From positions 1-64,000 of the forward strand of contig CANLQK010000006.1 of assembly GCA_947493255.1 (NCBI GenBank): a stretch of 64,000 nucleotides of DNA, written 5' to 3'. Under the pieces are notes generated by a model. The model was not told the origin of the DNA. It saw nothing but the letters and a program-made list of their open reading frames with translations, and did not search any database. Numbering within the stretch: position 1 is the first letter of the stretch; the number at the start of each line of letters is the position of its first letter. Of the stretch, positions 45,282 through 63,451 are shown piece by piece. The stretch comes from an uncultured Paracoccaceae bacterium. Its GTDB lineage: Bacteria; Pseudomonadota; Alphaproteobacteria; Rhodobacterales; Rhodobacteraceae. Both the position numbers and the translations under genes were made by a program.

Positions 45282-45973
45282 GGGTCGGCCCCTTTCGTAA
45301 GTAAGATCATTGAAAAGTAGGGCGCCTTTTCAGGGGCTTCGGACAGGGGCAAAACAACCTGTTCGGCCAGAGTTGCCCGTTCGATATAGCTGGCGGAGGC
45401 GGTTAACCCGAGGTCTTCGATCACGCCGCGAATTTTGGACAGATGGCGCCCGACCTTCATGATCGCCACCGCCTCGGCCCCTGCGATGCGTTCGCGCAGG
45501 GTGGCTTCGTCCATTGGGCCGGGCAAAACTGTCAGGCGTTCGTTGCGCGCAACCAAGGGACGGCCAGAAACCGCGGCGCAGGCTGTGACAGAAGTTACAC
45601 CGGGCACGACTTGCACGTCATAACGTTCTGCCAAGCGCGCATGGATGTACATAAACGAGCCATAGAAAAACGGATCGCCTTCACACAGGCAGACGACATC
45701 TTGGCCTTGATCCAAAACGGTGGCGATTTCGGCGGCGCCGGCGTCATAGGCCGCCTGCGCGGGGGCGCGGTCGGTGGTCATCGGAACATCCATACGGATT
45801 TCCTGAACGTTTTCAGATATTAAACCCGCCGCAATGGCGCGCGCAAAACTGTCGCCGCCTGCCAGCGTTGGATACGCGATCACCGATGCGCCTTCGATCA
45901 GGCGCGCTGCTTTGAGGGTTATCAGGTCGGGGTCACCCGGCCCAAGGCCCACGCCATAGAGTGTTCCGGTCAT
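45272..45973 (-). CDS. cobI: Precorrin-2 C20-methyltransferase
   Basis: 233 residues. The methyltransferase motif GVGLGPGDPDLITLKAARLI is at the N-terminus, with CLCEGDPFFYGSFMYIHARL and VVPGVTSVTACAAVSGRPL, typical of CobI/CbiL. It converts precorrin-2 to precorrin-3A. The start is the ATG at 45973, which overlaps the cobL stop as ATGA; an in-frame ATG at 45991 would lie inside cobL. Confidence 0.94.
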   Translation of the reverse strand: MTGTLYGVGLGPGDPDLITLKAARLIEGASVIAYPTLAGGDSFARAIAAGLISENVQEIRMDVPMTTDRAPAQAAYDAGAAEIATVLDQGQDVVCLCEGDPFFYGSFMYIHARLAERYDVQVVPGVTSVTACAAVSGRPLVARNERLTVLPGPMDEATLRERIAGAEAVAIMKVGRHLSKIRGVIEDLGLTASASYIERATLAEQVVLPLSEAPEKAPYFSMILLTKGADPWL

Positions 45974-47175
45974 CGTTTGATCAAGCTCCATTGGGTGACG
46001 GGCATGGAAGGCCGCCAGCCTGTGCGCGTCCCAACAGCGTCAGCGCGATAGGTTTGCAGCTTGACCAGATCACCGCCGAATTCACGGTGCAGAGCGATCA
46101 GCTCGGCTTCGGATTCTAAGGTCACGGCATTGGCAACGATGCGCCCCAAGGGACGCAGGGCGGACCATGCGCCATCAAACGTTTCGCGGGACAAGCCACC
46201 GCCGATAAACACGGCATCAGGGGCTTCTAAATCATTCAATGATTCCGGCACCTTACCATCGATCAATTGCAGGCGAGGGGCGCCAAGCGCGAGGGCGTTT
46301 TGGGCGGCCATGGCGCGGCGGTCGGCACGGGGTTCGATGCCGATGGCCCGAGCATAACGGGCCGCACGCATCCATTCGATGGCGACAGATCCACAGCCTG
46401 TTCCGATATCCCACAATAACGCACCGCGCATGGGCATGAGTTTGGCCACGGTGGTGGCGCGGATGTCGCGTTTTGTCATGGTGCCGTCCGAGACGAATAA
46501 ATCATCCGCCAAGCCCGGCACACGTGGTAGAAGCGCGGCATCTGGCGCGGCGATGCATTCAATACACAGCGTGTTAAAGGCTGGCACCTCATGCGCCCAC
46601 GTTGCGGCAGTGCCGTCAAAGCGGGCTTCGTCGTCGCCGCCCATTGCGGCAAGAACCGTCATTTTCGACCCACCGAACCCGCGATCCGTTAGAAAGGCCG
46701 CGATCTGAGCTGGTGTTTCGGCCCCTGTCGTCAAAACGATAAGACTTTGATCCGGTTGAATAAATGCAATCATCTGTTCAACAGGACGACCGTGCACAGT
46801 GAGCGTTTCAACATCCGCCAGAGACCAACCCATTCGCGCTGCAGCGAGTTGGAACGCGCTAAGTTGGGGATGATATACGATGTCTTCGGCGGGCAAGTCG
46901 CGGCCAATACGGGCACCTGCAGAGAACCAAAGCGGGTCGCCTGTGACCAACACAACGACGCGTCGATCGCTGTGGGCTTTCAAAGTATCTACCATCGTAT
47001 TGAAGGGTGACGGCCAAGGAATGCGTTCGGCTTTTGTGGTCGATGCAAGGGCATGATGACGTTCGCCGCCAATGATGATTTCGGCGGCTTCGACCACCGC
47101 ACGGGTCGCCGGCGCAAGACCATCCATGCCATCTTCACCGATGCCAACAATATGGAGCCAAGGGGCCTTAACCAT
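45970..47175 (-). CDS. cobL: Precorrin-6Y C5,15-methyltransferase (decarboxylating)
   Basis: 401 residues: a CbiE-type methyltransferase domain (from LHIVGIGEDGMDGLAPATRAVVEAAEIIIGGERH, about 1-200) fused to a CbiT-type Rossmann methyltransferase (LLWDIGTGCGSVAIEWMRAARYARAIGIEPRADR, about 215-395). It methylates C5 and C15 and removes the acetate carboxyl. ATG 47175 has GGGGG ahead at good distance. A longer in-frame reading to 47241 runs through the 11-bp repeats and is not conserved in the family. Confidence 0.95.
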   Translation of the reverse strand: MVKAPWLHIVGIGEDGMDGLAPATRAVVEAAEIIIGGERHHALASTTKAERIPWPSPFNTMVDTLKAHSDRRVVVLVTGDPLWFSAGARIGRDLPAEDIVYHPQLSAFQLAAARMGWSLADVETLTVHGRPVEQMIAFIQPDQSLIVLTTGAETPAQIAAFLTDRGFGGSKMTVLAAMGGDDEARFDGTAATWAHEVPAFNTLCIECIAAPDAALLPRVPGLADDLFVSDGTMTKRDIRATTVAKLMPMRGALLWDIGTGCGSVAIEWMRAARYARAIGIEPRADRRAMAAQNALALGAPRLQLIDGKVPESLNDLEAPDAVFIGGGLSRETFDGAWSALRPLGRIVANAVTLESEAELIALHREFGGDLVKLQTYRADAVGTRTGWRPSMPVTQWSLIKR

Positions 47176-47195
47176 TGAAATATCCCCCTGTTTCA

Positions 47196-47254
47196 AGCGT
47201 ACACAGGGCGTACACAACCTGTACACCGGCTGTATGTACATCTGTATGTCGGTC
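47196..47254. repeat. Tandem 11-bp GTACA repeats between cobH and cobL
   Basis: Read on the plus strand, GTACAC, GTACAC, GTACAC, GTATGT and GTATGT begin at 47199, 47210, 47221, 47232 and 47244, so the spacing is 11, 11, 11 and 12 bases. A full TGTACA is found at 47220-47225 and a second, out of phase, at 47235-47240. The block fills most of the 83-base cobH-cobL spacer and ends about 20 bases before the cobL ATG. Eleven-base direct repeats with TnTACA are the operator type of CarH-like B12-dependent photoreceptors; binding here is inference. Confidence 0.75.
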
Positions 47255-47258
47255 TACG

Positions 47259-47900
47259 TTAACCATTTGAAACCTCTGGCAATCCAGCAGAGAGTGCATT
47301 GACCGCCGCAGAGGCCATGGCGGAGCCACCTTTGCGCCCACGCAGCGCGATGAAATCGACGTCGCGCGGATTGGCGGCGAGTTCGGCTTTGCTTTCTGCC
47401 GCGCCGACGAAGCCCACAGGGAAGCCGAGGATCGCAGCGGGTTTTGGGAAACCTTGATCGATGAGGTCGAGCAGGTGGAACAACGCGGTGGGCGCATTGC
47501 CGATGGCAACGACTGCGTCTTTTATGTGGGGTTCCCAGAATTCGACGGCTGCAGCGGAACGGGTGTTGCAAATGGATTTGGCATGGTCCGGTGTGCGCGG
47601 GTCATTCAGCGTTACGATGACCCGATTGTCCGCTGGCAGGTAGCGGCGGATAATGCCTGCGCCGACCATTTCACAGTCGCACAGAATGGGCGCGCCCGAT
47701 TGCAGGGCGTGGTGACCCGCGAAGGCGACGTCAGGCGAGAATGCCAAACGGTCCGCGATTTCGACCATGCCGCACGCGTGGATCAAACGTGTGATGAGCG
47801 GATGCATGGACGCAGGGAACCGTTCGAGACGCGCCTCTTTTTGGACGGTCGCGAAGGACTGGGCGTAGATCGCTGAAGGGTCGGTTTCGTAGGGGCGCAT
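47259..47900 (-). CDS. cobH: Precorrin-8X methylmutase
   Basis: 213 residues. It moves the C11 methyl group to C12 to give hydrogenobyrinate or its cobalt form. The catalytic histidine is His41 in RLIHACGM. The blocks GAPILCDCEMVGAGI, NRVIVTLNDPRTPDHA, VVAIGNAPTALFHLLDLI and PAAILGFPVGFVGAAESKAEL are typical. Start at the ATG 47900. Its promoter could be its own or that of the upstream cbiX unit. Confidence 0.95.
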   Translation of the reverse strand: MRPYETDPSAIYAQSFATVQKEARLERFPASMHPLITRLIHACGMVEIADRLAFSPDVAFAGHHALQSGAPILCDCEMVGAGIIRRYLPADNRVIVTLNDPRTPDHAKSICNTRSAAAVEFWEPHIKDAVVAIGNAPTALFHLLDLIDQGFPKPAAILGFPVGFVGAAESKAELAANPRDVDFIALRGRKGGSAMASAAVNALSAGLPEVSNG

Positions 47901-47937
47901 GGCTATCAATCAATTGCAGAGGTCAGTCCTTGACCGC

Positions 47938-47960
47938 GGGTGGGGGTGAAGCCCCCGCCC
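47938..47960. other. GC-rich hairpin between cbiX and cobH
   Basis: GGGTGGGGGT and GCCCCCGCCC (47938-47947 and 47951-47960) form a ten-pair stem with two G-U wobbles and a GAA loop. A second smaller hairpin, GGC-GAA-GCC on the minus strand, lies near 47985. They fill the 100-base cbiX-cobH spacer. No T tract follows, so an attenuating or stabilising mRNA structure is more likely than full termination. Confidence 0.55.
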
Positions 47961-48000
47961 ATTGGGGCGGTCGGGGGCTGTCCGGCTTCGCCGTCCAAGT

Positions 48001-49215
48001 TTAGCGTTTCGATTTCCGTGCGCTTTCCGGGCCATGGGGGTGTTTGGCATGGGGGTAAGGCGCATGATGGTGATGGTCGTGATCATGCCCGTGATCATGG
48101 TCATGTCCGTGGTGGTGATGATGATGGTGGTCATCTTGGGACACGAGGCGGCACATGCCGGTGCAGAACGCATCGCAGTGCGTGCAATCCGCGACGTTGG
48201 AACCGGGGGCAGAGGCGCCCTGCCCTTCGACGTGGTGGTGGTGGGATTCTTGGATGGCGCCGACTTCGGACTCAAAACCTACCACGGCGGTGCGGTATTT
48301 ACATAATACGCACGTGGGGGGCGGTGTTTCGGCGAAGGCAGGATGATTGCGCTGATCCGGCGTGATGTGTTTGTGTTCGCCGTTTTCAAACGCCAGAACC
48401 TGTTCGCGGTAGCCGCAGATGCCGCAGTTGGGCGGTGGGTTTTTGCCGGTTTGTTCGATGATGCGTTCAGCGAAGGTTTCGAGGACTTTGGGGTGGTCGC
48501 CCAGATAGCCGGCTTTGACGAATTCGATGTCTGGATGTGCGGCGGCGACTTGATCGGTGAAGCCGTAGATGCGGTCGATTAGGATGCCGGAGAACAGGAA
48601 GTACGGGAAGACGACGATACGTTTGTACCCCAGTTTGGCCGCGTGGCTGAGACAGGGTTCGACGAGGGGGAAGGTCACGCCGGAATAGCCGACTTCGCAC
48701 CAGCCAAAGCCGAGGCCTTCGTGGAGCATCCGTGCGATTTTGGCGACGTTGCCGTTGGCATCGGGGTCGGATGCGCCACGCCCGATGACGACAAGGCAAG
48801 TGTCGTGGCGGGAGACGTCGCCGTGGGTTTTGTTCGCCTGATCGACCGCTTCTTCGATGCGGCCGGCAGCGGCGGCGATCATTTTGGGGTCAACGCCGAG
48901 TTCGCGACCATAAGAGACTTCGATCCCGTGTTTTTGGGCGTAGGTGTTCAGGACCGTCGGGATGTCGTTTTTGGAATGCATGGCGGCAAAGAGCATGCCG
49001 GGGACGGCGAGGATGCGGTCGCAGCCTGCTTCACGGAGTTTATCAAGGCCGTCGCGGATGACGGGGTTGGCGAATTCCAGATAGCCGTATTCGGTTTGCC
49101 AATCTTTGGGCAAAAGCGCTGGGAGTTTGTCAGCGAGGGTTGCAAATTCATCAACGGCGGATTGGCTACGAGAGCCGTGTCCGCAGATCATCACACCGGT
49201 TTTTTGCTGGCTCAT
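48001..49215 (-). CDS. cbiX: CbiX-type sirohydrochlorin cobaltochelatase with Cys/His tail
   Basis: 404 residues. Residues 1 to about 265 hold two CbiX/SirB-like halves (GVMICGHGSRSQSAVDEFA with His13, and VVIGRGASDPDANGNVAKIARML) that insert cobalt into sirohydrochlorin. The C-terminal 140 residues carry paired cysteines, CGIC and CVLC, then CTHCDAFCTGMC, which could bind iron-sulfur or zinc, and after that a run of seven histidines followed by a HDHDH-rich, highly basic end. Long CbiX with a metal-binding tail is known, but this one combines three Cys clusters with His. Overlaps the small membrane protein gene by four bases. Confidence 0.9.
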   Translation of the reverse strand: MSQQKTGVMICGHGSRSQSAVDEFATLADKLPALLPKDWQTEYGYLEFANPVIRDGLDKLREAGCDRILAVPGMLFAAMHSKNDIPTVLNTYAQKHGIEVSYGRELGVDPKMIAAAAGRIEEAVDQANKTHGDVSRHDTCLVVIGRGASDPDANGNVAKIARMLHEGLGFGWCEVGYSGVTFPLVEPCLSHAAKLGYKRIVVFPYFLFSGILIDRIYGFTDQVAAAHPDIEFVKAGYLGDHPKVLETFAERIIEQTGKNPPPNCGICGYREQVLAFENGEHKHITPDQRNHPAFAETPPPTCVLCKYRTAVVGFESEVGAIQESHHHHVEGQGASAPGSNVADCTHCDAFCTGMCRLVSQDDHHHHHHHGHDHDHGHDHDHHHHAPYPHAKHPHGPESARKSKR

Positions 49216-49430
49216 GCTGGCGCTTCCTCTGTGTTTTCGTCTTCGATTTCATCATCGATTTCGGTGTCGTCGTTGGATTTCTTACGCCCGCCCCAAAGCG
49301 CGATCGCCCCTGCGATGGCAATGCCGCCCAACGCAATCCAGTGACCGTGACCTGCGACTTCGCCGATATGACCGATATGTGCCAAAGCTGGCATGGGCAG
49401 GGTCAGTAGGGCGAGAAGGATGGTCCGCAT
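49212..49430 (-). CDS. Small membrane protein (DUF6732-like)
   Basis: 72 residues: a signal-like N-terminus (RTILLALLTLPMPALA), then a His-rich loop HIGHIGEVAGHGH (about 18-30), one membrane helix (WIALGGIAIAGAIALWGG), and a strongly acidic C-tail (DDTEIDDEIEDENTEEAP). It overlaps the start of cbiX by four bases, so the two are translationally coupled. His-rich periplasmic loop and acidic tail suggest metal handling near cobalt chelation; this is inference. The DUF6732 label is from memory. Confidence 0.7.
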   Translation of the reverse strand: MRTILLALLTLPMPALAHIGHIGEVAGHGHWIALGGIAIAGAIALWGGRKKSNDDTEIDDEIEDENTEEAPA

Positions 49431-49741
49431 TGTAGTCTCCGTTATTCATCGTTCGGCGTTTGCACACGACCAGAGACCGCTTTCGCGGGGTATGGACGAT
49501 TTGCGTCTTTGGTCCCCGTTTTGGGTCGACCGCGGATGCAACAACCTCTCTGGCCCTGAAGGGCGTCGTCGGGTGCAGTTTGATCATGCCAGCGGCGCGC
49601 GTGCAATGGGATTCGCGGCAATCGTTTGAGTGTTAGCGACAGACAGATGTGCGGTGACGCACGGTTTCTGCGCTGATGCGTGTGTTTGCGTTCGGGTCAG
49701 TGCGGGCTAAGTAATTGGGACGCAAGGATTGGAGGCGTTCG
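49431..49741. promoter_or_regulatory. Divergent control region: cob unit and GHR
   Basis: 311 bases with no gene. It must hold the promoter of the minus-strand cbiX-cob run. I looked for a cobalamin riboswitch box here and found none. There is a long-range stem, GACCAGAGAC (49468-49477) with GTCTTTGGTC (49505-49514), enclosing a small CCGC-TTTC-GCGG hairpin (49477-49488; its first base is shared), and a GCCC-TGAA-GGGC hairpin near 49552-49563. The ribosome site GGAGG precedes the GHR start. Confidence 0.5.
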
Positions 49742-50716
49742 ATGGGACAATTGGTAGACGGTGTTTGGCACGACGTTTGGTACGATACGAAATCGACCGG
49801 TGGTGCGTTCAAACGTACCACAGCGGCGTTTCGCAACTGGATCACGGCGGATGGGGCTGCGGGGCCGTCCGGCAAGGGCGGATTTGAGGCCGCGTCGGGG
49901 CGGTATCATTTGTATGTATCGTACGCCTGCCCTTGGGCGCACCGAGCTTTGGTGTTTCGTGCGCTGAAGGGGTTGGAGGACCATATTTCGGTGAGTGCTG
50001 TGCATCCTGATATGTTGTCGGACGGGTGGACGTTTGAAGTGGATGAGCATGGGGCAACGGGGGATACGTTGTATGGCCTGCCGTTTGCGCGGGATGTGTA
50101 TTTGAAGGCCGATCCGGGCGTGAGTGGGCGCGTGACTGTGCCGATCCTATGGGACAAGGACCGCGAGACGATTGTGAGCAATGAGAGTTCGGAAATTATC
50201 CGCATGTTCAATTCGGCGTTCAACGGGGTCACAGGGAACAGGGATGACTACTGGCCCGCGGAAATGCGCGATGACATCGAAGAGGTAAATGCGCGGATTT
50301 ATGACACGGTGAACAACGGCGTTTATAAGTGCGGGTTCGCGACGACGCAGGCGGCCTATGATGCCGCTGTGGGACCGTTATTTGACAGTTTGGATTGGCT
50401 GGAGGAACGGCTGGGCCAAGGGCGGTACCTGATGGGAGATCGGTTGACCGAAGCCGATTGGCGGTTGTGGACCACTTTGATCCGGTTCGATGCGGTGTAT
50501 CATTTGCATTTCAAATGTAACCGCAAACGGATCGTGGATTACCCGAACCTATGGGGGTTCACGCGCGATTTGTATCAGGTCGCTGGGGTGGCGAGCACAG
50601 TGAACATGGACCACATCGTGCGCCATTATCATTACAGCCATGAGACGATTAACCCGCACCGGATTATTCCGGTGAACCCTGTGTTGGATTTTGAGGCGGC
50701 CCATGGGCGGGGGTGA
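49742..50716 (+). CDS. Glutathionyl-hydroquinone reductase
   Basis: 324 residues of the GST-Xi (YqjG/PcpF) family. The active-site cysteine is Cys63 in YVSYACPWAHRALVFRALKGL, with the helical GST domain afterwards (EEVNARIYDTVNNGVYKCGFATTQ, YLMGDRLTEADWRLWTTLIRFD, AVYHLHFKCNRKRIVDYPNL). It reduces glutathionyl-hydroquinones with glutathione. ATG 49742 has GGAGG six bases upstream; the longer start at 49715 is less likely. No quinone-degradation genes are near it. Confidence 0.92.
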   Translation: MGQLVDGVWHDVWYDTKSTGGAFKRTTAAFRNWITADGAAGPSGKGGFEAASGRYHLYVSYACPWAHRALVFRALKGLEDHISVSAVHPDMLSDGWTFEVDEHGATGDTLYGLPFARDVYLKADPGVSGRVTVPILWDKDRETIVSNESSEIIRMFNSAFNGVTGNRDDYWPAEMRDDIEEVNARIYDTVNNGVYKCGFATTQAAYDAAVGPLFDSLDWLEERLGQGRYLMGDRLTEADWRLWTTLIRFDAVYHLHFKCNRKRIVDYPNLWGFTRDLYQVAGVASTVNMDHIVRHYHYSHETINPHRIIPVNPVLDFEAAHGRG

Positions 50717-50769
50717 AGGTCTAGAATGAGCCCATAGTCTCTTCGCCAAACTTATGAGATGTTTGCGCA

Positions 50770-51054
50770 ATGCAGCGAATTTCCATCAATATATCAGAAT
50801 GCGAGACCGTAGATGATTTCTACGGGATTTTGCTTACATCACTCGATGCGCCTGTCTGGCACGGACGAAATTTGGACGCTCTATGGGACAGTATCACAAG
50901 TGATATCAACAACGTTATGCCTCCATACTCTATCGAAGTTTCAGTAGGCACCGAACTATCGCAAAGCGTCGCCGTATTACTGCCACGTGTCAAAGCCTTA
51001 TTCGATGAAGCACGAGAACAAGAACATATCGAAGTTGAGTTCAAAGTCGGCTAA
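50770..51054 (+). CDS. Orphan barstar family protein
   Basis: 94 residues. The barstar pattern is seen in DDFYGILLTSLDAPVWHGRNLDALWDSITS, with the Trp-His-Gly-Arg-Asn-Leu-Asp-Ala-Leu core, and a C-terminal strand HIEVEFKV. Barstar is the inhibitor of the extracellular ribonuclease barnase. No RNase toxin gene lies next to it: upstream is the GHR gene, downstream a short ORF and DUF1636. Codon use is more AT-rich than the neighbours (by eye), which suggests recent arrival. Confidence 0.82.
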   Translation: MQRISINISECETVDDFYGILLTSLDAPVWHGRNLDALWDSITSDINNVMPPYSIEVSVGTELSQSVAVLLPRVKALFDEAREQEHIEVEFKVG

Positions 51055-51095
51055 GTCCCGCAAAGCGGACGTCAAGTGACACTGATAGGGAGGCT

Positions 51096-51167
51096 ATGTC
51101 TGAACATCCGTCCAACGCACCCTTGCCCCCACCCGTCAAATCCGCTTTGAAAGGTGGGCTGAATTAG
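51096..51167 (+). CDS. Short ORF (23 codons) ahead of DUF1636
   Basis: ATG at 51096 with GGGAGG two bases upstream, a very strong ribosome site but tighter than usual. The peptide is 23 residues, Pro-rich and basic near the end (APLPPPVKSALKGGLN). It ends nine bases before the DUF1636 ATG, so it could be a leader peptide or a small protein. No homolog recognised; evidence is the ribosome site and position only. Confidence 0.4.
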   Translation: MSEHPSNAPLPPPVKSALKGGLN

Positions 51168-51176
51168 GGGGCTGTT

Positions 51177-51548
51177 ATGACCACATGGATTACCGTTTGC
51201 GACACATGTAAGCGCGAAGGCTGGGATGCCGCGGCGGGCGAGCCGACCGATGGCGAGGCTTTGGCTGAATTGGTTGAGGGATGTGCCGCCGGGGCCGAGG
51301 ACGTGCGCACGCGGCGGGTGTCTTGCACTATGGGGTGTGACCGCGCCGTCAACATCACGGTGCAGGCCAAGGACAAGATCAACTATTCGCTGGGCACGTT
51401 TGAGGCCACCGAAGGCGATGCAGAGGCCATTGTGGAATATGCGGCGAAACATGCTGCAAGCGAGACGGGGCAAGTGCCGTACCGTGAATGGCCACAGGGC
51501 GTGAAGGGGCATTTTGTGTCCCGTCATCAGCCGCTTCCCGAGGAATGA
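51177..51548 (+). CDS. DUF1636 family metal-binding-like protein
   Basis: 123 residues with five cysteines: C8 and C11 (CDTC), C36, C50 and C54 (CTMGC). This fits the DUF1636 family, thioredoxin-like ferredoxin-type folds found in B12 and cobalt-chelatase neighbourhoods; a [2Fe-2S] or other metal site is possible. It overlaps cobC by four bases (ATGA), so it is co-produced with the aminopropanol enzymes. Role in B12 synthesis is inferred from position only. Confidence 0.82.
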   Translation: MTTWITVCDTCKREGWDAAAGEPTDGEALAELVEGCAAGAEDVRTRRVSCTMGCDRAVNITVQAKDKINYSLGTFEATEGDAEAIVEYAAKHAASETGQVPYREWPQGVKGHFVSRHQPLPEE

Positions 51549-52462
51549 GTAAGCGCGACCATGGTGGAGGGCTGGACGCTGCGGTTGCCGCCTATGGGGG
51601 CGTTCGCAGCGATTGGTTGGACCTAAGCACCGGGATCAATCCGGTGCCCTACCCTGTGGGTGAGATTACCGCTGGGGCATGGACCGCCCTGCCCGATCAA
51701 GGGGCGATGGACCGGTTGTTGGCGGCGGCCCGCGTGTTTTGGAATGTGCCGGATGGGGCCGAGGTTGTGGCGGCGAACGGGGCATCAGCGTTGATTGCGG
51801 CGATGCCTCATGTTTGGGATGGAACGCGGGTGTCGATCCCTGCCCCGACCTATAACGAACATGCGGCGGCCTTTGCAGCGAATGGTTGGCAGGTTGGCGA
51901 GCGTGGCGATGTGCATGTTGTTGTGCACCCTAACAATCCCGATGGGCGGGTTTGGGGCGATGCGCCATCCGCGCGCTCTATCGTGATTGACGAGAGTTTT
52001 TGTGACGTGATGCCAGAGGCGAGCCATGTGGCCCGTGCAGTGCATCCTGACACGGTGATTTTGAAGAGCTTTGGGAAATTCTGGGGACTGGCGGGCGCAC
52101 GGTTGGGGTTTGCGATTTGTGCGCCGGAGATTGCACAGAAGCTGCGCGATCAGTTGGGGCCATGGGCCGTGGCGGGGCCTGCGTTAGAGATTGGTGCGCG
52201 GGCGTTGGAAGACGTGGCGTGGGCCGAGGCGACGCGGGACCGGTTGGCGACGGATGCTAAACGGTTGGATGATTTGGTTGGTTGGGATTTGGTTGGCGGA
52301 ACCGATTTGTTCCGCACCTATGCCGTGCCTGATGCGGCAGCGACGCAGGATAAACTGGCCCGTGGTCATGTGTGGTCGCGCATTTTTCCGTACTCGAAAA
52401 CATGGATCAGGTTGGGGCTGCCTGCGCCTGACCAGTGGGACCAGTTGGAGGCTGCGCTGTGA
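51545..52462 (+). CDS. cobC: L-threonine-O-3-phosphate decarboxylase
   Basis: 305 residues of the histidinol-phosphate aminotransferase-like PLP family. The N-terminus [29 protein letters not shown] and the PLP lysine Lys178 in [16 protein letters not shown] are characteristic of CobC (CobD of Salmonella), which makes (R)-1-aminopropan-2-yl phosphate for the nucleotide arm. Start at ATG 51545 in an ATGA overlap. Coupled to cbiB by GTGA. Confidence 0.92.
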
Positions 52463-53355
52463 TCGCGATTGCCTGCGCTATGGTTTTGGACGCGCTGTTG
52501 GGCGAACCCAAGTGGCTATGGGACAGGCTGCCCCACCCTGCCGTGCTGATGGGCCGTGCGGTTGGGGTGTTGGATGCGCGATTGAACAACCGGACGCGGC
52601 GCAATGGCGTTTGGGCGGTTTGTATTTTGGTGATCGGGGCCGCTGTTTTGGGGTGGATCATGGCCGCGATCCCCGGTTGGTGGGTTGAGGTGATCGTCGG
52701 GGCAATGTTGCTGGCGCAGAAATCATTGGTGCAACATGTGCAGGCGGTCGGTGATGCGTTGCGTTTGTCGCTGGGCGATGGGCGGCGCGCTGTTGCGATG
52801 ATTGTAGGGCGCGATGTGCGTGGCATGGATGACGCCGCGGTGGCACGGTCGGCCATAGAAAGCGCGGCGGAAAACCTGAGCGACGGGGTGATTGCGCCGT
52901 TGTTTTGGTTCGTCATCGCAGGGTTGCCGGGGCTGTTGGCCTATAAGGTGATCAACACAGCCGACAGCATGATTGGGTATCGCACCGAGAAACACGAGGC
53001 GTTCGGCTGGGCCGCCGCGCGGTTGGATGATGTGGTTAATTGGGTGCCTGCGCGGATCACCGCACTGCTGATTTGGCTGGCAGGGCCGACCCGTGCCAGT
53101 TTTGGTGCGATCCGCGCGGACGCGGCGTTGCACCGGTCGCCGAATGCAGGCTGGCCCGAGGCGGCAATGGCGCCAGCGCTGGGTGTCGCGCTGTCGGGGC
53201 CACGCAGCTACGAGGGCGTGAAGCAAGAGTTCCCGTTCGTGAATGCCGCTGGACGCAAGGACGCACGCTCTGATGACATTGATGCCGCGGTTTTGAGCCT
53301 TTGGAAGGCTTGGGGGATTTCGCTGATCACGATCATCTTGATTGCACTGTTGTGA
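52459..53355 (+). CDS. cbiB: Adenosylcobinamide-phosphate synthase
   Basis: 298 residues from a GTG at 52459 that overlaps the cobC stop as GTGA. Polytopic membrane protein with the family blocks [64 protein letters not shown] and [44 protein letters not shown]. It attaches the aminopropanol arm to adenosylcobyrate. Called CobD in the Pseudomonas denitrificans scheme. Confidence 0.95.
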
Positions 53356-53391
53356 GGCTACGCTAGGGTGGCCTGAACCAAAGGAGACCCT

Positions 53392-54555
53392 ATGTTCAGA
53401 TCAGCCGTTTTCGCATTTACCGTCTTGGCCGCACCTGTGGCTGCGCAAACCTGTGGCGGGTCATGGGCCGCGTTTCAGGATGGGTTGGTGGCCGAAGCCG
53501 CGACCCATGGCATTTCTGAGAGCACCGCGCGGGGATTTTTGGCCGGTGCACGGCAGGACGCAGAGGTTTTGGCGGCGGACCGGCGGCAGGGTGTTTTCCA
53601 GCGCGATTTCATCGACTTTTCGCGGCGTCTGATTTCGAACAACCGGATTGAAAATGCCCGCGCGCAATCAAGCCGGCAGGATGCGATATTTGATCGCATC
53701 GAAGCGGAGATGGGTATTCCGCGCGAGGTGTTGTTGGCGTTTTGGGCGTTCGAAACGGATTTCGGTGCGGTGCAGGGCAATTTCAACACCCGCGATGCGT
53801 TGGTGACATTGGCCCATGATTGCCGCCGCCCAGAGCTGTTCCGGCCGCAGATTTTTTCAGCGATGGAGTTATATGCACGGGGCGATTTGGACCCCGCAAC
53901 TACCACAGGTGCGTGGGCCGGCGAGATCGGCATGGTACAGATGTTACCCGGAGACATTATTGAAAACGGCCGTGATGGGGATGGCGATGGACAGGTTTCG
54001 TTGAAGACATCCGCGCCGGATGCATTGTTGTCTGGTGCATCGGTTTTGTCATCACTGGGGTGGGTGCCAAACCAGCCGTGGTTGCAGGAGGTGACTGTTC
54101 CAAGCCAGATGGATTGGGCGCTGTCGGGGACTGAAACGACTTTGCCAGCCTCCCAGTGGGCCGCGATGGGTGTTGCTTCGCGCAGTGGCGCATTGGCGGA
54201 ACTACCGGCGTCGTTGATTTTGCCAATGGGGCGAAACGGGCCTGCGTTCCTCGCTTATCCGAATTTCGATGTTTATTTCGAATGGAACCAATCGTTCACA
54301 TACGTTCTTACAGCGGCCTATTTTGCGACCCGTATTGGCGGTGCGCAGGTTTACAATGCGGGCAATCCTGAAGCTGGTTTGAGCGGTGATCAGATCCAAC
54401 AGTTGCAACGGAAGTTGGAAGCGCGGGGTCATGATGTGGGCGGTGCCGATGGCATCATTGGTGCACGCACACGCGCGGCCATTCAGGTGGAACAGACCCG
54501 TTTGGGGATGCCAGCGGATGCTTGGCCCACGGCGGCACTGCTGTCGGCGCTCTAG
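53392..54555 (+). CDS. Lytic murein transglycosylase (MltB type)
   Basis: 387 residues: signal peptide (cleavage after VAA at about 18), SLT-2 catalytic domain (about 20-300) with the catalytic glutamate Glu121 in FWAFETDFGAVQGNFNTRDALVTL, and a C-terminal peptidoglycan-binding domain (about 325-385, SGDQIQQLQRKLEARGHDVGGADGI). It cleaves glycan strands in the periplasm. No lipobox, so it is a soluble rather than anchored member. Confidence 0.92.
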   Translation: MFRSAVFAFTVLAAPVAAQTCGGSWAAFQDGLVAEAATHGISESTARGFLAGARQDAEVLAADRRQGVFQRDFIDFSRRLISNNRIENARAQSSRQDAIFDRIEAEMGIPREVLLAFWAFETDFGAVQGNFNTRDALVTLAHDCRRPELFRPQIFSAMELYARGDLDPATTTGAWAGEIGMVQMLPGDIIENGRDGDGDGQVSLKTSAPDALLSGASVLSSLGWVPNQPWLQEVTVPSQMDWALSGTETTLPASQWAAMGVASRSGALAELPASLILPMGRNGPAFLAYPNFDVYFEWNQSFTYVLTAAYFATRIGGAQVYNAGNPEAGLSGDQIQQLQRKLEARGHDVGGADGIIGARTRAAIQVEQTRLGMPADAWPTAALLSAL

Positions 54556-54911
54556 CGGATTTCGCGGATCGGGAAACGTTGACCGTCCGCGGTGAGCACC
54601 GTGAGACGATCGCCCGCTTGCACGAACATATCGCAGCGTTCTACGCCAGTGACGAAAGTGATGCAGGCGACGTTATCGGTGATTTCGTGATGGCCGTACC
54701 AAACGCCGCCGCCGTTGTCGGGGTTGTACGTCCACGTATAGGTGCCGTCGGTGTTGTAACGGGACACGCCGCCGTCGAAATATTCAAGGTCGTGGACGAG
54801 AATGATTTCGGACAATTCTTGGGCCGTTGGCACTGTATCGGTATCGCGCGGGTTATAGTCTTGGGCGGACACCGGCGCGGCGAGAAGCAGGGGAATGAGG
54901 ACGTATTTCAT
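54552..54911 (-). CDS. Hypothetical secreted protein
   Basis: 119 residues from MKYVLIPLLLAAPVSAQDYNP, a clear Sec signal peptide (cleavage after SAQ at about 17). The rest is beta-rich (DGTYTWTYNPDNGGG, YGHHEITDNVACITF, GVERCDMFVQAGDRLTVLT) with two cysteines that could pair. An in-frame start 23 codons upstream is less likely. Convergent with the transglycosylase gene, overlapping by four bases. Function unknown. Confidence 0.7.
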   Translation of the reverse strand: MKYVLIPLLLAAPVSAQDYNPRDTDTVPTAQELSEIILVHDLEYFDGGVSRYNTDGTYTWTYNPDNGGGVWYGHHEITDNVACITFVTGVERCDMFVQAGDRLTVLTADGQRFPIREIR

Positions 54912-54955
54912 AGGGACGAGTGTGACAGAAGCGGAGTTATCTGTCGCCTCACGAT

Positions 54956-55108
54956 CAGGTGTTCCCCAACCTTGTTTCATATATTGGAAAAGGTAAGGTC
55001 AAACCGCTGTTGGCAATGATGTACCCGTTGCAAGACATCGCCAAGGCGCAGCAGGATTTTCAGGAGAAAAAACACATCGGAAAGATTGTTTTGGTGCCGG
55101 AGGGGTAA
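54956..55108 (+). pseudogene. 3' remnant of an MDR alcohol dehydrogenase/quinone reductase gene
   Basis: Translated on the plus strand, 50 codons read QVFPNLVSYIGKGKVKPLLA, then a segment with YPLQDIAKAQQDFQEKKHIG and KIVLVPEG before TAA. This is the C-terminal end of zinc-type MDR oxidoreductases. No upstream part exists: the frame closes at a TGA 30 bases before and the region is taken by the secreted protein gene on the other strand. It is a decayed leftover of a deleted gene, not a functional ORF. Confidence 0.75.
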
Positions 55109-55120
55109 GGTCAGTTTCTA

Positions 55121-55570
55121 ATGAAGTCTTTATGGAACCGTCCCGGCGGAAAATTGATAATTGCGATCCTATCGATCTTGGCAGCGGGTGCTTTCGTGAT
55201 GGCAGCAGAACCGCTGTTCGGGCGACAAACGTTGGTTGTAGAGATTGAATGGATCGACGCAGTTGAGGAGTGCTCAGGTAGCGGCGGGAAAGCCATATTC
55301 AATTCAAGGTCAGATGCACCAACACGATCCGGCGATAGCTATTGTGGGTTCATTCAGACTAGCCACGGTCTTATTCAACTTCCTGAAGACAGTTTCCTTT
55401 CTCAAGGGCCGCGAAAAGAAATGCTTCATATCTTGCGAGAGAACTGTAGCTTCGAAATTATCGTCGCGGGTTATGGCCTTGACCTATACGAAGGCCAGCC
55501 GCGCCATAACCGCGACCCCAAAACCCTACGTTCTATTGAACGGGTATTTGAATGCCGAGAAGCCAATTAG
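55121..55570 (+). CDS. Hypothetical membrane-anchored protein
   Basis: 149 residues. One N-terminal helix (about 11-30, KLIIAILSILAAGAFVMAA) with a basic preceding segment suggests a signal anchor or cleaved signal. The extracytoplasmic part has four cysteines (EECSGSGG, SYCGFIQ, ENCSFEII, FECREAN), probably disulfide-paired. It lies 12 bases after the MDR remnant and converges with the FAD dehydrogenase gene. The sequence looks more AT-rich than its neighbours (by eye). No family recognised. Confidence 0.6.
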   Translation: MKSLWNRPGGKLIIAILSILAAGAFVMAAEPLFGRQTLVVEIEWIDAVEECSGSGGKAIFNSRSDAPTRSGDSYCGFIQTSHGLIQLPEDSFLSQGPRKEMLHILRENCSFEIIVAGYGLDLYEGQPRHNRDPKTLRSIERVFECREAN

Positions 55571-55591
55571 GGCTGTTGCGAGGTTTTTTTG

Positions 55592-57241
55592 CTACCCCGC
55601 ACTTCTACCCGCAGCCCTGCCCGAAAAGATACAACCACCCAAGAATGTGCCTTCCAGCGAGTTGTAGCCGTGGTAGCCACCACCCCCGAAGCCGGAGGCT
55701 TCGCCTGCGGCATAGAGGCCTGCGATGGGGTTGCCTGCGGCGTCGATGGCTTGGCTGTTGAGGTCCGTTTGCAAGCCGCCCAGCGTTTTGCGGGTGATCA
55801 AGTTGAGGCGCACGGCGATGAGGGGGCCGTTGCCTTCATCGAGGAATTTATGCGGTTTGGCGGTGCGGATGAGCTTGTCGCCGCGGTAATGCCGCGCCGC
55901 TTGGATGGCGGTGATTTGCGGGTCTTTACTGAAGGGATTGTCGACTTGGGCGTCGCGGGCTTCGATCTGCGCGCGCAGGTGTGCCTCGTCGATCAGGTCG
56001 TCGTCGGTGATGCCGTTCATGCCTTTAACGAGGTCGACCAGATTGTCGGCAACGACGAAGTCCGCGCCGTGTTCCTTAAACGCCTCGACAGGACCGGTAG
56101 CGTTTTTGCCGGACAGGATACGTTCCTTTAGCACCTTGGACCATTTGGCCGATGTGAGGTCAGGGTTTTGTTCGGATCCTGAGAGGGCGAATTCCTTTTT
56201 GATGACCTTTTGGGTCAACACGAACCAGCTGTAGTCGAAGCCGGTGTCGAGGATCGCTTTGAAGGTTCCGTTGGTGTCGAAACCAGGCATGGCGGGGGGC
56301 GCGAAGCGGTTGCCGCGCGCGTCGAACCATAGGGACGATGGGCCTGGTAGGATGCGGATGCCGTGGGCAGGCCAGATCGGGTCCCAGTTTTTGACGCCTT
56401 CGGTGTAGAACCACAGACGGTCGCGGTTGATGACGTGGCCGCCTGCGTCCTCGGTGATGCCGATCATGCGGCCATCGACGTGGGCTGGCACGCCGGAGAG
56501 CATGTTTTTCGGGGCGGGGCCAAGACGTTCCGTGGGCCAGACTTTGCGGATGAGGTCGAAGTTGCCACCGATGCCGCCAGAGGCGACGATCACCGCGTCG
56601 GCATCGACGCGGAACTCGCCCACAGCGTCGCGGTTGGTTTGCGCACCTTGGACGGCGTTATCGGGGGCAAGGGTTGTGCCGGACACACCGACAGCCGCGC
56701 CGTTTTGCATTTCCAACCGGTCGACTTGGTGACGATGCAGATAGGTAATGCGGCCCGCGTCGCGGTGTTCGTTGCAGCGGCGGATAAAGTGTTCGAGCAC
56801 ACCGGGGCCGGTGCCCCATGTGATGTGGAAACGGGGTACGGAATTGCCGTGGCCCATGGCGTCGGACCCGCCGCGTTCGGCCCAGCCCACAACGGGGAAC
56901 CAACGCAGGCCCATGTCGTGCAGCCACGGGCGCATTTCGCCTGCCGCGAAGTCGAGATATTTTTCGGCCCATTGGCGTGGGTAGTTGTCTTCGGGTCGAT
57001 CAAATTGCGCCGACCCCATCCAGTCGTTCAGGGCCAGTTCGTGGCTGTCTTTGATGCCCATGCGCCGCTGTTCGGGGGTATCGACCATGAACAGGCCGCC
57101 AAGGGACCAATGGGCCTGACCGCCAAGGTTTTGCGGGCCTTCTTGGTCTACGATCACGACCCTTTTGCCGCGATCCCCAAGTTCAGCGGCGGCGGCAAGA
57201 CCAGCAAGGCCTGCGCCCACAACAACGACATCTGTTTTCAT
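55592..57241 (-). CDS. FAD-binding dehydrogenase (3-ketosteroid dehydrogenase-like)
   Basis: 549 residues from the ATG at 57241, which overlaps the transporter stop as ATGA. N-terminal FAD motif VVVVGAGLAGLAAAAELGDRGKRVVIVDQE, a flavoprotein-2 (fumarate reductase/KsdD-like) insertion, ASGGIGGNFDLIRKVWP, and the C-terminal GLYAAGEASGFGGGGYHGYNSLEGTFLGGCIFSGRAAG. It oxidises or reduces a C-C bond; steroid, urocanate and dicarboxylate substrates are known for the family. Coupling to a BASS transporter suggests that it acts on the imported substrate. Function not settled. Confidence 0.88.
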   Translation of the reverse strand: MKTDVVVVGAGLAGLAAAAELGDRGKRVVIVDQEGPQNLGGQAHWSLGGLFMVDTPEQRRMGIKDSHELALNDWMGSAQFDRPEDNYPRQWAEKYLDFAAGEMRPWLHDMGLRWFPVVGWAERGGSDAMGHGNSVPRFHITWGTGPGVLEHFIRRCNEHRDAGRITYLHRHQVDRLEMQNGAAVGVSGTTLAPDNAVQGAQTNRDAVGEFRVDADAVIVASGGIGGNFDLIRKVWPTERLGPAPKNMLSGVPAHVDGRMIGITEDAGGHVINRDRLWFYTEGVKNWDPIWPAHGIRILPGPSSLWFDARGNRFAPPAMPGFDTNGTFKAILDTGFDYSWFVLTQKVIKKEFALSGSEQNPDLTSAKWSKVLKERILSGKNATGPVEAFKEHGADFVVADNLVDLVKGMNGITDDDLIDEAHLRAQIEARDAQVDNPFSKDPQITAIQAARHYRGDKLIRTAKPHKFLDEGNGPLIAVRLNLITRKTLGGLQTDLNSQAIDAAGNPIAGLYAAGEASGFGGGGYHGYNSLEGTFLGGCIFSGRAAGRSAG

Positions 57242-58101
57242 GAATTGCGGCTCCGTAACCAAAGGACGAATGGGATGGCGGTGACATACATGATCACGCC
57301 GTACATGGCGGACGGCAGACCAATGGTGGGGATGCCGTTTGTGGCGCCCACGATCAGCGGCGCGAGGGTGATGCCGAGGCTGCCGTTTTGGATGCCGACC
57401 TCGATGGAGATGGTTTTACGCTCGCGCCATGTGAGCCCCAGCGCCGTGGCGATCAACAGGCCGCCGATCATGGTCGAAAGGTTCAAGGTCAGCAGCGCAG
57501 GTGCGAGGGTGCCTGCATTTTCCGTAAGAAGGCCCCAGTTCGACGCGATGGCCGCGAGGATGATGAGGACGAAAAGCACAGACGCGATTTTGATGAGGGT
57601 TGGTTCGAGACGGTCCGCAAGTGGGGTTGCGAAATGGCGCAGGACCATCCCAAGGATAACGGGCAACATGGTGAGCAAGAACATCGCGAGGGCAAGGGAC
57701 GTGACCGAAACGTCGGGGGCCGCTTCGCCCATGAAATGCACAACGGCCCAGCTGATCATGATCGGAACGGTGAGGATTGAGGCGAGAGACATGAGCGCCG
57801 TGAGCGACACCGACAGCGCCACATCACCACCCGCCAAACGCGACACTACGTTGGACGTAACACCACCAGGGCAGAGTGCGATGAGCATGACCCCTGCGGC
57901 GATGGCGCCGGAAAGGCCGAACGCCATGATGATCAGGTAGGCCATGACAGGCAGCAGCACGAGCTGACAGGTGGCGCCGATAGCGAAGACCCAGCCCCGT
58001 TCGGCCACGCGTTTGAAGTCGGCCAATGTAAGGCCAATGCCGAGGCTGAACATGATGATTGCCAGCGATAGCGGCAGCACGACGTTTACCAGAATATCCA
58101 T
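57238..58101 (-). CDS. Bile acid:sodium symporter (BASS) family protein
   Basis: 287 residues with about nine helices and the BASS sodium-site region LIALCPGGVTSNVVSRLAGGDVALSVSLTALMS. Bacterial members transport bile acids, keto acids or other organic anions with sodium. Upstream of and overlapping the FAD dehydrogenase gene by four bases, so the two form a two-gene unit. Which anion is moved cannot be told from the sequence. Confidence 0.9.
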   Translation of the reverse strand: MDILVNVVLPLSLAIIMFSLGIGLTLADFKRVAERGWVFAIGATCQLVLLPVMAYLIIMAFGLSGAIAAGVMLIALCPGGVTSNVVSRLAGGDVALSVSLTALMSLASILTVPIMISWAVVHFMGEAAPDVSVTSLALAMFLLTMLPVILGMVLRHFATPLADRLEPTLIKIASVLFVLIILAAIASNWGLLTENAGTLAPALLTLNLSTMIGGLLIATALGLTWRERKTISIEVGIQNGSLGITLAPLIVGATNGIPTIGLPSAMYGVIMYVTAIPFVLWLRSRNS

Positions 58102-58334
58102 TGATCCCCTCCCAAGGCGTTGACGTTGAGGGCATCATAGCGGGTGGGGTTGTTCAAGGGGAGTGGCAGTGTGACGGTGCGTTAGGGTTTGGGTTTCTCT
58201 AGCAAGGGCGTGCTTGGCGGAGGCTTTGATCCGGAAACATGACGCCGGAACCACACTTGTGAGCAACGAATATCGGCCCCGCGCCCTCTTTGCATCTTGC
58301 TGCAGGAAGCCCCAACACTTGCTGTCGCACAATT

Positions 58335-58371
58335 TGACATTGTGCTTGTCAATATGACAAGTATAATGTCA
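58335..58371 (+). promoter_or_regulatory. Two MarR-type palindromes over the marR promoter
   Basis: Two copies of TGACA-N7-TGTCA occur at 58335-58351 and 58355-58371 with centres 20 bases apart; between them CTTGTCA-ATA-TGACAAG (58345-58361) is a third perfect palindrome made of the inner arms. A consensus TATAAT lies at 58362-58367 inside the second copy, followed six bases later by the ATG at 58374. There is no ribosome site, so the message is probably leaderless and autorepressed by the MarR protein. The rest of the 272-base gap (58102-58334) shows nothing else. Confidence 0.8.
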
Positions 58372-58373
58372 TT

Positions 58374-58820
58374 ATGAAAACAGAACACCTTCACCAACTT
58401 ATTTGGATGTCACGCCCTTTAATGCAGGCCGCTGAAGCCTGCGTTGAAGCTGGTCTGGTTGGAACCGATCTTACTGTCCGGATGCGCGCCGTTCTGGAGA
58501 TGCTGGACAAATATGGAGAGCAGACCGTTCCAGAGATTGCGGCAAGGCTCGAAATTAAGCGGCAATACGTCCAGATAATGTGCAACGAAACGCGCGAGTC
58601 CGGTTTCATTGAGCAACGTGCAAATCCGCGTCATAAACGTTCACCTATCATGGCTCTGACGGATCGCGGCCGCACGGTAATCAAAGACATCATTTCCAGA
58701 GAGATGACGCTTATGGAGGAGGTCGGTGGAGACTTAAGCGATGAAGACATTGCTACCGCGCTTAGGGTTGTACGCGCGGTAACGGACAGTTTGAAGCAAG
58801 AAGCAGGAGAGACAGAATGA
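58374..58820 (+). CDS. MarR family transcriptional regulator
   Basis: 148 residues. Winged-helix core: TVRMRAVLEMLDKYGEQTVPEIAARLEIKRQYVQIMCNETRESGFIEQRANPRHKRSPIMALTDRGR, with the wing basic segment NPRHKR. It presumably represses its own promoter through the palindromes immediately upstream. It overlaps the isochorismatase gene by four bases, so that enzyme is the probable regulated function. Inducer unknown. Confidence 0.9.
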   Translation: MKTEHLHQLIWMSRPLMQAAEACVEAGLVGTDLTVRMRAVLEMLDKYGEQTVPEIAARLEIKRQYVQIMCNETRESGFIEQRANPRHKRSPIMALTDRGRTVIKDIISREMTLMEEVGGDLSDEDIATALRVVRAVTDSLKQEAGETE

Positions 58821-59437
58821 TCTTTGGCTATATCTTGGTATCTATGGCCCTCCTCATTGTACTCTGGCTTGGCACTGGGATTAGACGCATCGGTTCGGTG
58901 AGTGTTGGAGCCCCCATACGGCAACGAGATGGATCAGCGCTGCTGCTCATTGATCTGCAATCCGTTTTCTGGGACCGCGGTCCTTATTCGGAGGCCGCGA
59001 AAAACACCGCGGCGGCGGCGATTTTCAAGGACGTAGAAGCGGCGCGCGCGCAAAACCATCCAGTTATTGCTGTACGTCAGGAATGGTCGATCCCATCAAC
59101 GAAGGCTGTGGCCAAACTCGCCATGAAGGGACAGGCGATAGAGGGCAGTGAGGGGACAGAGGTTGCGGAGGTTTTCGCCTCCCTCCCTGATCATGTCATT
59201 GTGAAACGGGTACAGGATGCGTTTGAAACAGGCGAGCTCGACGCCCTTCTGGAACGCCTCGGCGTGGGCCGCCTTCGGATCGTGGGTTTGGATTTCAACT
59301 ATTGTGTGCAGAAGACGGCGCTGGCGGCTAGAAATCGCGGATATGACGTCACTGTCGTAAAAGATGGAACTCTTTCAGCGGCGCCGACGGAGGCTGCTGA
59401 AAAACGGATGTCGGCAGCGGGTGTGATTGTCTCGTGA
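58817..59437 (+). CDS. Membrane-anchored isochorismatase-family hydrolase
   Basis: 206 residues. One N-terminal helix (about 3-20, a signal anchor) precedes a full cysteine-hydrolase domain with catalytic Asp46 (LLLIDLQ), Lys130 (VIVKRVQDAFE) and Cys163 (DFNYCVQKTAL). Family members hydrolyse isochorismate, nicotinamide, N-carbamoyl compounds or amides. The anchor is unusual for a family that is mostly cytoplasmic. Regulated with marR by overlap; substrate unknown. Confidence 0.85.
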   Translation: MIFGYILVSMALLIVLWLGTGIRRIGSVSVGAPIRQRDGSALLLIDLQSVFWDRGPYSEAAKNTAAAAIFKDVEAARAQNHPVIAVRQEWSIPSTKAVAKLAMKGQAIEGSEGTEVAEVFASLPDHVIVKRVQDAFETGELDALLERLGVGRLRIVGLDFNYCVQKTALAARNRGYDVTVVKDGTLSAAPTEAAEKRMSAAGVIVS

Positions 59438-59490
59438 ACGAATATTGTCTCTGAAAGAGCGAACCGCAAAAGGTCTCACTCAAAGGGTCA

Positions 59491-62400: not shown

Positions 62401-62946
62401 TAGTTCCGCCTCGTGGCGACGTTGATACAGGCCGGAGATGCCTGCGGCCTCTTCCAAGATACGACGGCGCGCTTTGGGTTTGGAATTGATCAGTTCGGAG
62501 ATTTGACCCTGACGTACCAGCGCAGGAGAGTGCGCACCGGTGGAGGCATCTGCGAACAGCATCTGCACATCGCGGGCGCGCACATCTTTTGCGCCGACTT
62601 TATAGGCAGAGCCAACATCGCGGGTGATGCGACGCACGATTTCCAGCTTATCACTGTCGTTAAAGGCCGCAGGCGCGAGACGTTCGCCATTGTCGATTTC
62701 GAGCGAAACTTCGGCGAAGTTGCGGGCAGGACGTGTGGACGCACCAGCAAAAATCACGTCTTCCATGCCGCCGCCACGCATGGCTTTAGGGCGGTTTTCG
62801 CCCATGACCCAACGCAACGCTTCGAGGAGGTTAGATTTGCCGCAGCCGTTTGGACCCACCACGCCTGTCAGCCCGTCCTGAATGATCAGGTCGGTCGGGT
62901 CGACGAAGCTTTTAAAGCCATTCAGGCGAAGGCGGGAAAACCGCAT
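59491..62946 (-). CDS. smc: Chromosome segregation protein SMC
   Basis: 1151 residues: Walker A GPNGCGKSN (31-39), long coiled coils (about 170-480 and 640-990) broken by a hinge (about 500-620, EGGYEKALGAALSDDLKAPA), and the C-terminal ABC signature LSLLSGGEQTLTALALIF with Walker B CVLDEVDAPLDDANV. SMC with ScpAB organises and separates sister chromosomes. No other gene is close on the same strand. Confidence 0.97.
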   Translation of the reverse strand: MRFSRLRLNGFKSFVDPTDLIIQDGLTGVVGPNGCGKSNLLEALRWVMGENRPKAMRGGGMEDVIFAGASTRPARNFAEVSLEIDNGERLAPAAFNDSDKLEIVRRITRDVGSAYKVGAKDVRARDVQMLFADASTGAHSPALVRQGQISELINSKPKARRRILEEAAGISGLYQRRHEAELKLKGSEQNLARVDDVIEQLASQLGQLARQARQAARYRAIGDDLRQSEGLLLYRRWKEADEARAAAMDELRERTTAAASAETAARQSAKARQTAEDALPPLREEEAIAAAVLQRLHVQRDTLADQEARAKQTIETLTNRIEQLVRDMDREGELNKDAGETIERLEWEATEIAKAHAGHEDRLEEARHASTDGAQILADRETDLSEMTEDVARLAARHQSAQRLIDDYRKTLEKNEADAQRAQATRADAQAALERAAADFERAEEAEEIARATAENAEDVLQEAEAARADTQSREADARALRSEAEGEANALRAETAALSKLVDRDSSEGSQILDQLRVEGGYEKALGAALSDDLKAPAVTPDMGSGWVALAGYSQPQLLPEGVKALTNYVSVPEVLVRRMGQVGLVDAADGAKLQKDLKPGQRLVSLEGDLWRWDGFRAAAEDAPSAAALRLQQLNRLEGLKKDLNDALARADGMVQAHEMLTTRLSELAEADKTARIARRAADTAVADANRALSRAEADRNLAESKLDSSGLAVSRHEEEAMSARKALTEAEATAKGLANLDDARAAVEDVKMTVEAARMTMMAKRSNFDEVRREGEARTKRSQEITKEISGWKHRLETANKRTAELLDRKETSQSELEDALLAPEDIAYKREELADATDDAETRRAAAADVLALGETALREATVTERDAERLASEARESRARSEARSDAAKETTQAAVERIMEALETTPDNLLETLDVDPDKMPASEAIENDVNRLKRQRDALGAVNLRAEEDAKEVQEEHDLLVKEKTDLEDAIRALRTGIAALNKEGRERLLTAFEQVNESFGTLFQHLFGGGEAKLVMVEADDPLDAGLEILCQPPGKKLSTLSLLSGGEQTLTALALIFAVFLANPAPICVLDEVDAPLDDANVTRFCDLLDEMTRRTNTRFLIITHHAVTMARMDRLFGVTMGEQGVSQLVSVDLKAAETMVA

Positions 62947-63044
62947 GGGTTGCTCGTTTATGATTCTCTATCCGGCTTATATGCTGCGCGGTCAGGTACG
63001 TCTGAGTCAACGAACCCACACCGGATGTCGCGCAAAATAGGCGG

Positions 63045-63404: not shown

Positions 63405-63416
63405 TAAATGAAACCC

Positions 63417-63434: not shown

Positions 63435-63451
63435 TGCATGGGATAGAAAAT

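Follow-up and report, generated by a model that had tools for sequence, protein, structure and literature searches.

The DNA stretch considered here (the window) is the whole sequence of 64,000 nucleotides taken from contig CANLQK010000006.1 of an uncultured Paracoccaceae bacterium, and our subject is an array of 11-bp direct repeats lying between two of its cobalamin synthesis genes, cobH and cobL. On the plus strand, GTAC or GTAT starts at positions 47199, 47210, 47221, 47232, 47236 and 47244. The units at 47199, 47210, 47221 and 47232 are exactly 11 bp apart, the unit at 47244 comes 12 bp further on, and the copy at 47236 is out of register. An earlier note on this DNA had described five units with 11-bp spacing; the repeats are real and four of them keep that spacing exactly, but the fifth does not. 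The two copies of the palindrome TGTACA that it reported are present at 47220 and 47235, and since the sequence is palindromic, the TnTACA core is readable on both strands at these two positions. It also placed the repeats correctly, within the 83-bp spacer that runs from the cobH stop codon (47259-47261) to the cobL ATG (47175). Read on the cob-coding (minus) strand from 47240 down to 47197, the units are TGTACATACAG, CCGGTGTACAG, GTTGTGTACGC and CCTGTGTACGC, preceded by a degenerate unit (47252-47241). TAC is in register in each unit on this strand, which is therefore called the TAC strand; left denotes its 5' side and right its 3' side. The features of the locus are as follows.

47197-47240, minus strand: four-unit 11-bp array, dialect A, read 5' to 3' on the minus strand; member of a genome-wide family
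47241-47252, minus strand: degenerate fifth unit, out of step by one base
47176-47258, minus strand: spacer from the cobH stop to the cobL ATG, holding the array; absent, with the genes overlapping, in genomes G008, G010, G013, G005 and G009
47168-47176, no strand: TTAACCATT at the cobL start, with a second copy at 47259-47267 over the cobH end
45970-47175, minus strand: cobL coding sequence, from the ATG following the array
47259-47909, minus strand: cobH reading frame
47250-64000, no strand: GC-skew domain on the 5' side of the array, reaching to the window end; the cob-sense strand is C-rich (-0.22 to -0.30)

On both strands of the 64-kb window there is a single run of at least four GTAC/GTAT at 11 bp, and 200 first-order Markov windows (plus strand) contain none. 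The array was not among the repeats returned by Tandem Repeats Finder at score 30. Slippage was rejected as its origin because the free bases vary within the units and the core is kept.

Arrays across the chromosome and their dialects

When the genome holding the window was searched with the array stretch, there were 11 matches, eight of them (self included) below 1e-3, and they adjoin genes read as lpdA, xth, metG, murD, a LysR gene and arfB. (Genes at arrays were picked as the longest open reading frame, and names such as lpdA, valS and acs were read from the sequence and are not database calls.) An array model built from eight copies gave 18 matches in this genome and matched 13 of the 19 genomes of the genus, with 38 matches in G006. 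With a dialect-neutral pattern (four TAC at 11-bp spacing) the number rose to 15 of the 19. Among 149 genomes of the family 17 were matched, one of them by 71 rows and some by single rows that may be chance. The cob operon, which the earlier note proposed as the target, loses that role, as the same array adjoins many unrelated genes and also occurs in a valS-like frame and between convergent genes. The copy in that frame (L006 1501-1539; C2:497749-497787 of the same genome) lies within 788 amino acids (aa) read as valS, and leaves the frame unbroken.

Besides dialect A, further unit dialects were found: GCCATACG in G012 (31 rows), CCCATACC in G016 as well as in G000, G015 and G001, GCAATACC in G000 and G015, and TATATAC in G003. 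Here G016 is Octadecabacter dasysiphoniae G9-8, G012 is Pseudooctadecabacter jejudonensis CECT 8397 and G109 is Puniceibacterium sediminis DSM 29052. By our detector, four units are present in 19/20 fetched G016 arrays and in 20/20 fetched G012 arrays, the 20 being in each case a subset of the arrays listed.

Across the genus, cobH and cobL overlap and leave no spacer in loci L011 and L019-L022; the spacer is degenerate in L023, and the remaining spacers hold an 11-bp array at a similar distance to both genes. Where it is present, the array mostly retains its geometry, but the dialect can differ, with units of TGTGTAC, GCCATACG, CCATAC(C) or TATATAC depending on the species. The same is seen elsewhere on the chromosome. 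Between G000 and G016 the dialect differs at lpdA, gltD, xth, an FAD oxidoreductase, a fabH-like gene and cobL, and it is unchanged at acs, icd and a dms-like operon. G013 has a three-unit array at lpdA, and G005 and G009 have array remnants or CCATATG units (7 and 11 overlapping rows, respectively). No array was found in G008 by the model, the dialect-neutral pattern or further scans.

These dialects bear on the proposal that the array is a CarH/LitR-type operator, on which a B12- and light-sensing MerR protein would control cobL-cobI-cobJ-cobM. The published CarH repeat is nnnnTnnACAn, and CarH operators comprise three or four tandem 11-bp repeats with TnnACA (PMC9304148). TGTACA fits this motif, and tandem 11-bp direct repeats with TnnACA are present here, in this dialect only; other dialects do not fit it, and the cob arrays of relatives include units that are incompatible with it. 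The sites are also dispersed and adjoin many unrelated genes. A PF02310 search of the same genome gave three proteins, one of 233 aa and frames of 712 and 669 aa. The 233-aa protein (L039 1438-2139, minus strand, contig C4) has two B12-binding domains and no MerR domain, and the other two, which were not domain-scanned, we take to be mutases. Among these matches, with the two frames unscanned, there is no protein joining MerR and B12-binding domains, and the CarH/LitR expected in the same genome was not found. We consider a CarH operator extremely improbable. Sites of PpsR, whose motif is TGT-N12-ACA, were also rejected, the motif being absent from the array.

The patchy occurrence of the arrays, the copy within the valS-like frame and the 9-bp repeat flanking the cobH-cobL copy would all suit a small mobile element inserting at many places. 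Against this, array positions are common to species with different dialects. Target duplication is also not general, since flanking repeats of at least 8 bp were found in 7/55 arrays versus 12/275 control places. A plasmid or phage source was rejected as well: the plasmids of PLSDB gave no match to dialect A or CCCATACC, and phages gave one partial 19-base match to GCCATACG. A mobile element is very unlikely. Viral contigs contained 5 stretches for CCATAC and none for dialect A.

A candidate ribbon-helix-helix partner

A second DnaA-like initiator was rejected as the binder because each of the 19 genus genomes has one Bac_DnaA_C match. When the proteins adjoining arrays were clustered, a recurrent small protein emerged, and two of its members match Pfam PF14384 (BrnA family, ribbon-helix-helix, RHH) above cut-off at 2.8e-13 and 1.9e-12. 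A PDB sequence search with the RHH protein gave nothing significant (best E 0.61), and a search of NCBIfam gave no match close to cut-off. In the first set of loci the RHH gene starts 58-82 bp from the array and reads away from it in 8/8 cases. A whole-genome search, covering 80 of 166 genomes, returned 25 matches above 100 bits; of the 16 that were checked, every one starts next to an array, which in G006 is degenerate. Altogether the gene start adjoins an array in 19/19 checked cases, including Amylibacter and one further metagenome-assembled genome locus; these are the 8 first loci, 8 loci fetched with upstream DNA, and G009, G010 and G014 by their listed coordinates. In G000, G004 and Amylibacter the array is flanked by the RHH gene on one side and a fabH-like gene on the other, perhaps an old home locus.

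The number of RHH proteins follows the dialects in several genomes. G000, G001 and G015 contain both the TGTGTAC and the CCATACC families and two RHH paralogs that differ in the beta strand, one beside each kind of array. A single strong match is found in G003, G004, G006, G012 and G016, and there is none in G008, which is complete and array-less. G013 (<90% complete) also gave no match. Outside the genus, 19 of 24 chosen genomes that show array patterns have an RHH match, versus 14 of 37 hand-picked genomes that lack such patterns (Fisher 0.002). In G014, a genome with 30 model matches, the RHH gene next to an array is broken into two fragments (C1:3590168-3590559), and the system there is perhaps in decay.

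RHH proteins read DNA through their beta strand, and it is this strand that varies by dialect in proteins which are otherwise close. The proteins of G000 (dialect A) and G003 are 79% identical, with TRVTIRLD in the former and TAISIRLD in the latter. The strand is VKVTISLD or RKVTISLD with CCCATACC units and RKVTMRLD with the GCCATACG units of G012.

Two side observations concern other repeats. A reversed control pattern (CAT at each 11 bp) gave up to 50 rows in G182, G172, G126, G074 and G061, where the TAC pattern gave zero; these rows are possibly further dialects, and RHH matches exist in four of the five genomes. Among the matches listed, Bacteroidetes, cyanobacterial and further contigs (e.g. 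L193, L209) also carry 11-bp arrays of CCATAC, on average without 5' skew.

One-sided GC skew at the arrays

A fixed gene-direction correction of 0.09 was used for the left/right counts and for the analyses of the G003 domain, the region upstream of cobL, array C6:190660, other families and skew steps; the third-position profiles, the TA skew and the base changes were evaluated without it. The left skew is below the right in 59 of 65 arrays (20/20, 15/15, 14/20 and 10/10) and negative in 63. In this count 15 of the 20 G000 loci were entered, the detector having found no array in L124, L129, L132, L138 and L139. In G016 the C-rich strand of the surrounding 20 kb is the TAC strand for 20/20 fetched arrays; in G012 this is the case for 18/20, and the remaining two are within 0.005 of zero skew. 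In third-position profiles split by gene direction (G016, G000 and G012), the 5' side is strongly skewed over about 10 kb and the 3' side has little skew past 3-4 kb; the TA skew around arrays has the same sense as the GC skew. On the 5' side, C is up, T and G are down and A is unchanged on the TAC strand.

The window itself follows this picture, with its largest 10-kb skew step at the array position (47,250) and, on the 3' side, a skew that stays near zero beyond about 3 kb. The skew upstream of cobL is -0.22 to -0.30 in G000, G016 and G012, compared with -0.066 in G005 and -0.033 in G009, both of which lack the cobL array. In G003 the cobL array lies close to the end of a skew domain some 50 kb long, and the KOPS-type octamers there run mostly opposite. 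Over 400 kb of G003 the top step peaks are at 178-182 kb and 20.5 kb, and the steps at the arrays themselves, at 175.9 and 15.8 kb, belong to the highest 5%. Array C6:190660 of G000 is identical in G009, inside a reading frame; with a left skew of -0.004 it shows no domain in G009, and in G000, at -0.096, a weak one. It is taken as a chance match. Beyond the genus, where loci were assigned to families by hand from titles, the 5' skew is negative in 35/44 arrays of other Rhodobacteraceae (mean -0.110) and in 15/34 arrays of other phyla (mean -0.006). Counted by hand among the matches listed, 29/39 arrays are co-directional with replication (G003 10/14 by KOPS direction, not significant alone at p 0.18; G006 19/25 by skew, with 13 of its 38 matches outside the count).

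An ordinary regulon would offer another account, namely an RHH transcription regulator with many operators, the skew edges being a by-product of sites beside conserved genes. MetJ-type RHH regulators use tandem operators, and several arrays directly precede start codons, that of the RHH gene among them. However, arrays also occur between convergent genes and within frames, array direction tracks the local skew (the 20/20 of G016 and 18/20 of G012) with neighbour genes on both strands, and the skew step is independent of gene direction. We regard the regulon as unlikely.

Gene transfer agents (GTA) were considered as well, with the array as a packaging start (pac-like) site. Packaging is a unidirectional process that would fade over tens of kb, the arrays occur in a GTA-rich family, and GTA genes are contained in the published skew peaks (PMC9836097). 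Yet G016, which has arrays and strong skew, gave 0 matches of PF03237 (Terminase_6N), and we judge this explanation highly improbable.

Interpretation and relation to known systems

The dispersed family, its polarity and dialects, the gene-array pairing and the one-sided skew lead us to favor, at a probability of roughly 0.6, the reading that the array is one of a set of chromosome-wide polar sites bound by the RHH protein and marking a strand-asymmetric process, its placement between cobH and cobL being incidental to B12. From the earlier interpretation this keeps a repeat-binding protein on 11-bp units on one helix face, but neither the identity of CarH nor the cob target. A small BrnA-family RHH protein would bind the polar arrays, its dimers probably lining up head to tail on about four units in a ParR/parC-like manner. 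Each such protein would share a unit sequence with its own sites; arrays at fixed places switch dialect between species. The complex would mark the start of a process running toward the 5' side of the TAC strand, possibly as a one-sided, origin-like or nick-and-displace event; alternatively, it might halt a process arriving from the 3' side. The sign of the skew matches a fork or displaced strand heading from the array to the 5' side of the TAC strand, as at half an origin.

The halting alternative can be put more precisely as a polar barrier: the RHH array would stop a motor that comes from the 3' side exposing the TAC strand, and with the motor stopped at the array, this strand would be spared over tens of kb to the 5' side. 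Such a block would give the same skew, and the base changes lean that way, C gain with T and G loss and unchanged A being in keeping with sparing of the TAC strand. The motor is hypothetical, though, a process more asymmetric than replication is needed, and the base changes could likewise come from A-to-G change on a displaced strand. The barrier appears possible but rather unlikely.

Several points weigh against the polar RHH-site reading. The binding of the RHH protein to the arrays is itself predicted from sequence. The first eight RHH loci were chosen mostly for having arrays (the whole-genome search is less biased), and in the whole-genome search the array check covered 16 of the 25 strong matches (>100 bits), leaving 9. 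G011 (79% complete) has both dialects yet one RHH match, G010 has one RHH match and a single site of another dialect, and no match was found in the array-bearing G002, G007, G017 and G018, each <90% complete. RHH matches, mostly of low score, are present in 14/37 pattern-less family genomes. As for the skew, the step is seen in only 14/20 G012 arrays, and the cobL contrast comes from two related array-poor genomes, G005 and G009. The G003 step peaks are 2-6 kb away from the arrays, and there is no step at the four-unit G003 array C1:287399-287436 (287 kb), which is perhaps recent or unused. Outside the genus, the 3' side is slightly negative too (22/29; other Rhodobacteraceae -0.038).

Among the closest known systems is type II partition, ParR/parC (ParMRC), where an RHH protein also sits on tandem direct repeats. 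According to PMC9426499, partition adaptors include RHH proteins that bind direct repeats, R1 ParR requires at least two 11-bp repeats, and ParR families have their own repeat sequences. ParR/parC differs in being a plasmid centromere beside parM, whereas here there are tens of chromosomal sites and a skew edge; no ParM was recognised by eye beside the RHH genes in seven loci, and no genome search for it was made. BrnA antitoxins share the Pfam match of two RHH proteins, but in the loci inspected the RHH gene has the array instead of brnT directly upstream, and the protein has extra N- and C-terminal stretches. By eye, no toxin-like gene was seen upstream of the RHH gene in seven loci, whose neighbours were not scanned against families. 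RHH proteins also serve as relaxosome accessories. KOPS, Chi and nucleoid-occlusion sites are likewise dispersed, and some are directional along the replichore; the present arrays differ in being few, in having four units, dialects and an RHH protein of their own, and in the one-sided skew.

Extreme local GC skew in Rhodobacterales, in regions rich in core genes and containing GTA genes, was described by Koppenhofer et al. 2022 and attributed to codon use (PMC9836097). These regions resemble the domains found here, but the explanation differs; the main text of that paper does not contain the word "tandem", and only repeats >800 bp were taken. Among titles and abstract openings, with subscription papers little covered, we found none on the arrays or the RHH protein and no paper tying the skew peaks to arrays. 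Tentatively, and as a reading more likely wrong than right, we suggest that Rhodobacterales may contain an unreported system in which tens of polar RHH arrays are one-sided starts of DNA synthesis or of single-stranded DNA exposure, making GC-skew domains, and in which protein and arrays switch recognition together chromosome-wide between sister species. If true, this would give a concrete cause for skew peaks hitherto ascribed to codon use, and would add to the polar chromosomal landmarks a kind that has a protein of its own. A natural series of recognition switches would also be provided, in which closely related RHH proteins, each next to a unit sequence of its own, differ in few residues of the beta strand, and many genomic sites would have been re-coded in place between dialects.

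Elsewhere in the window, a cobalamin riboswitch (RF00174, 111 bits) lies at 63195-63417 on the plus strand and is the sole Rfam match.
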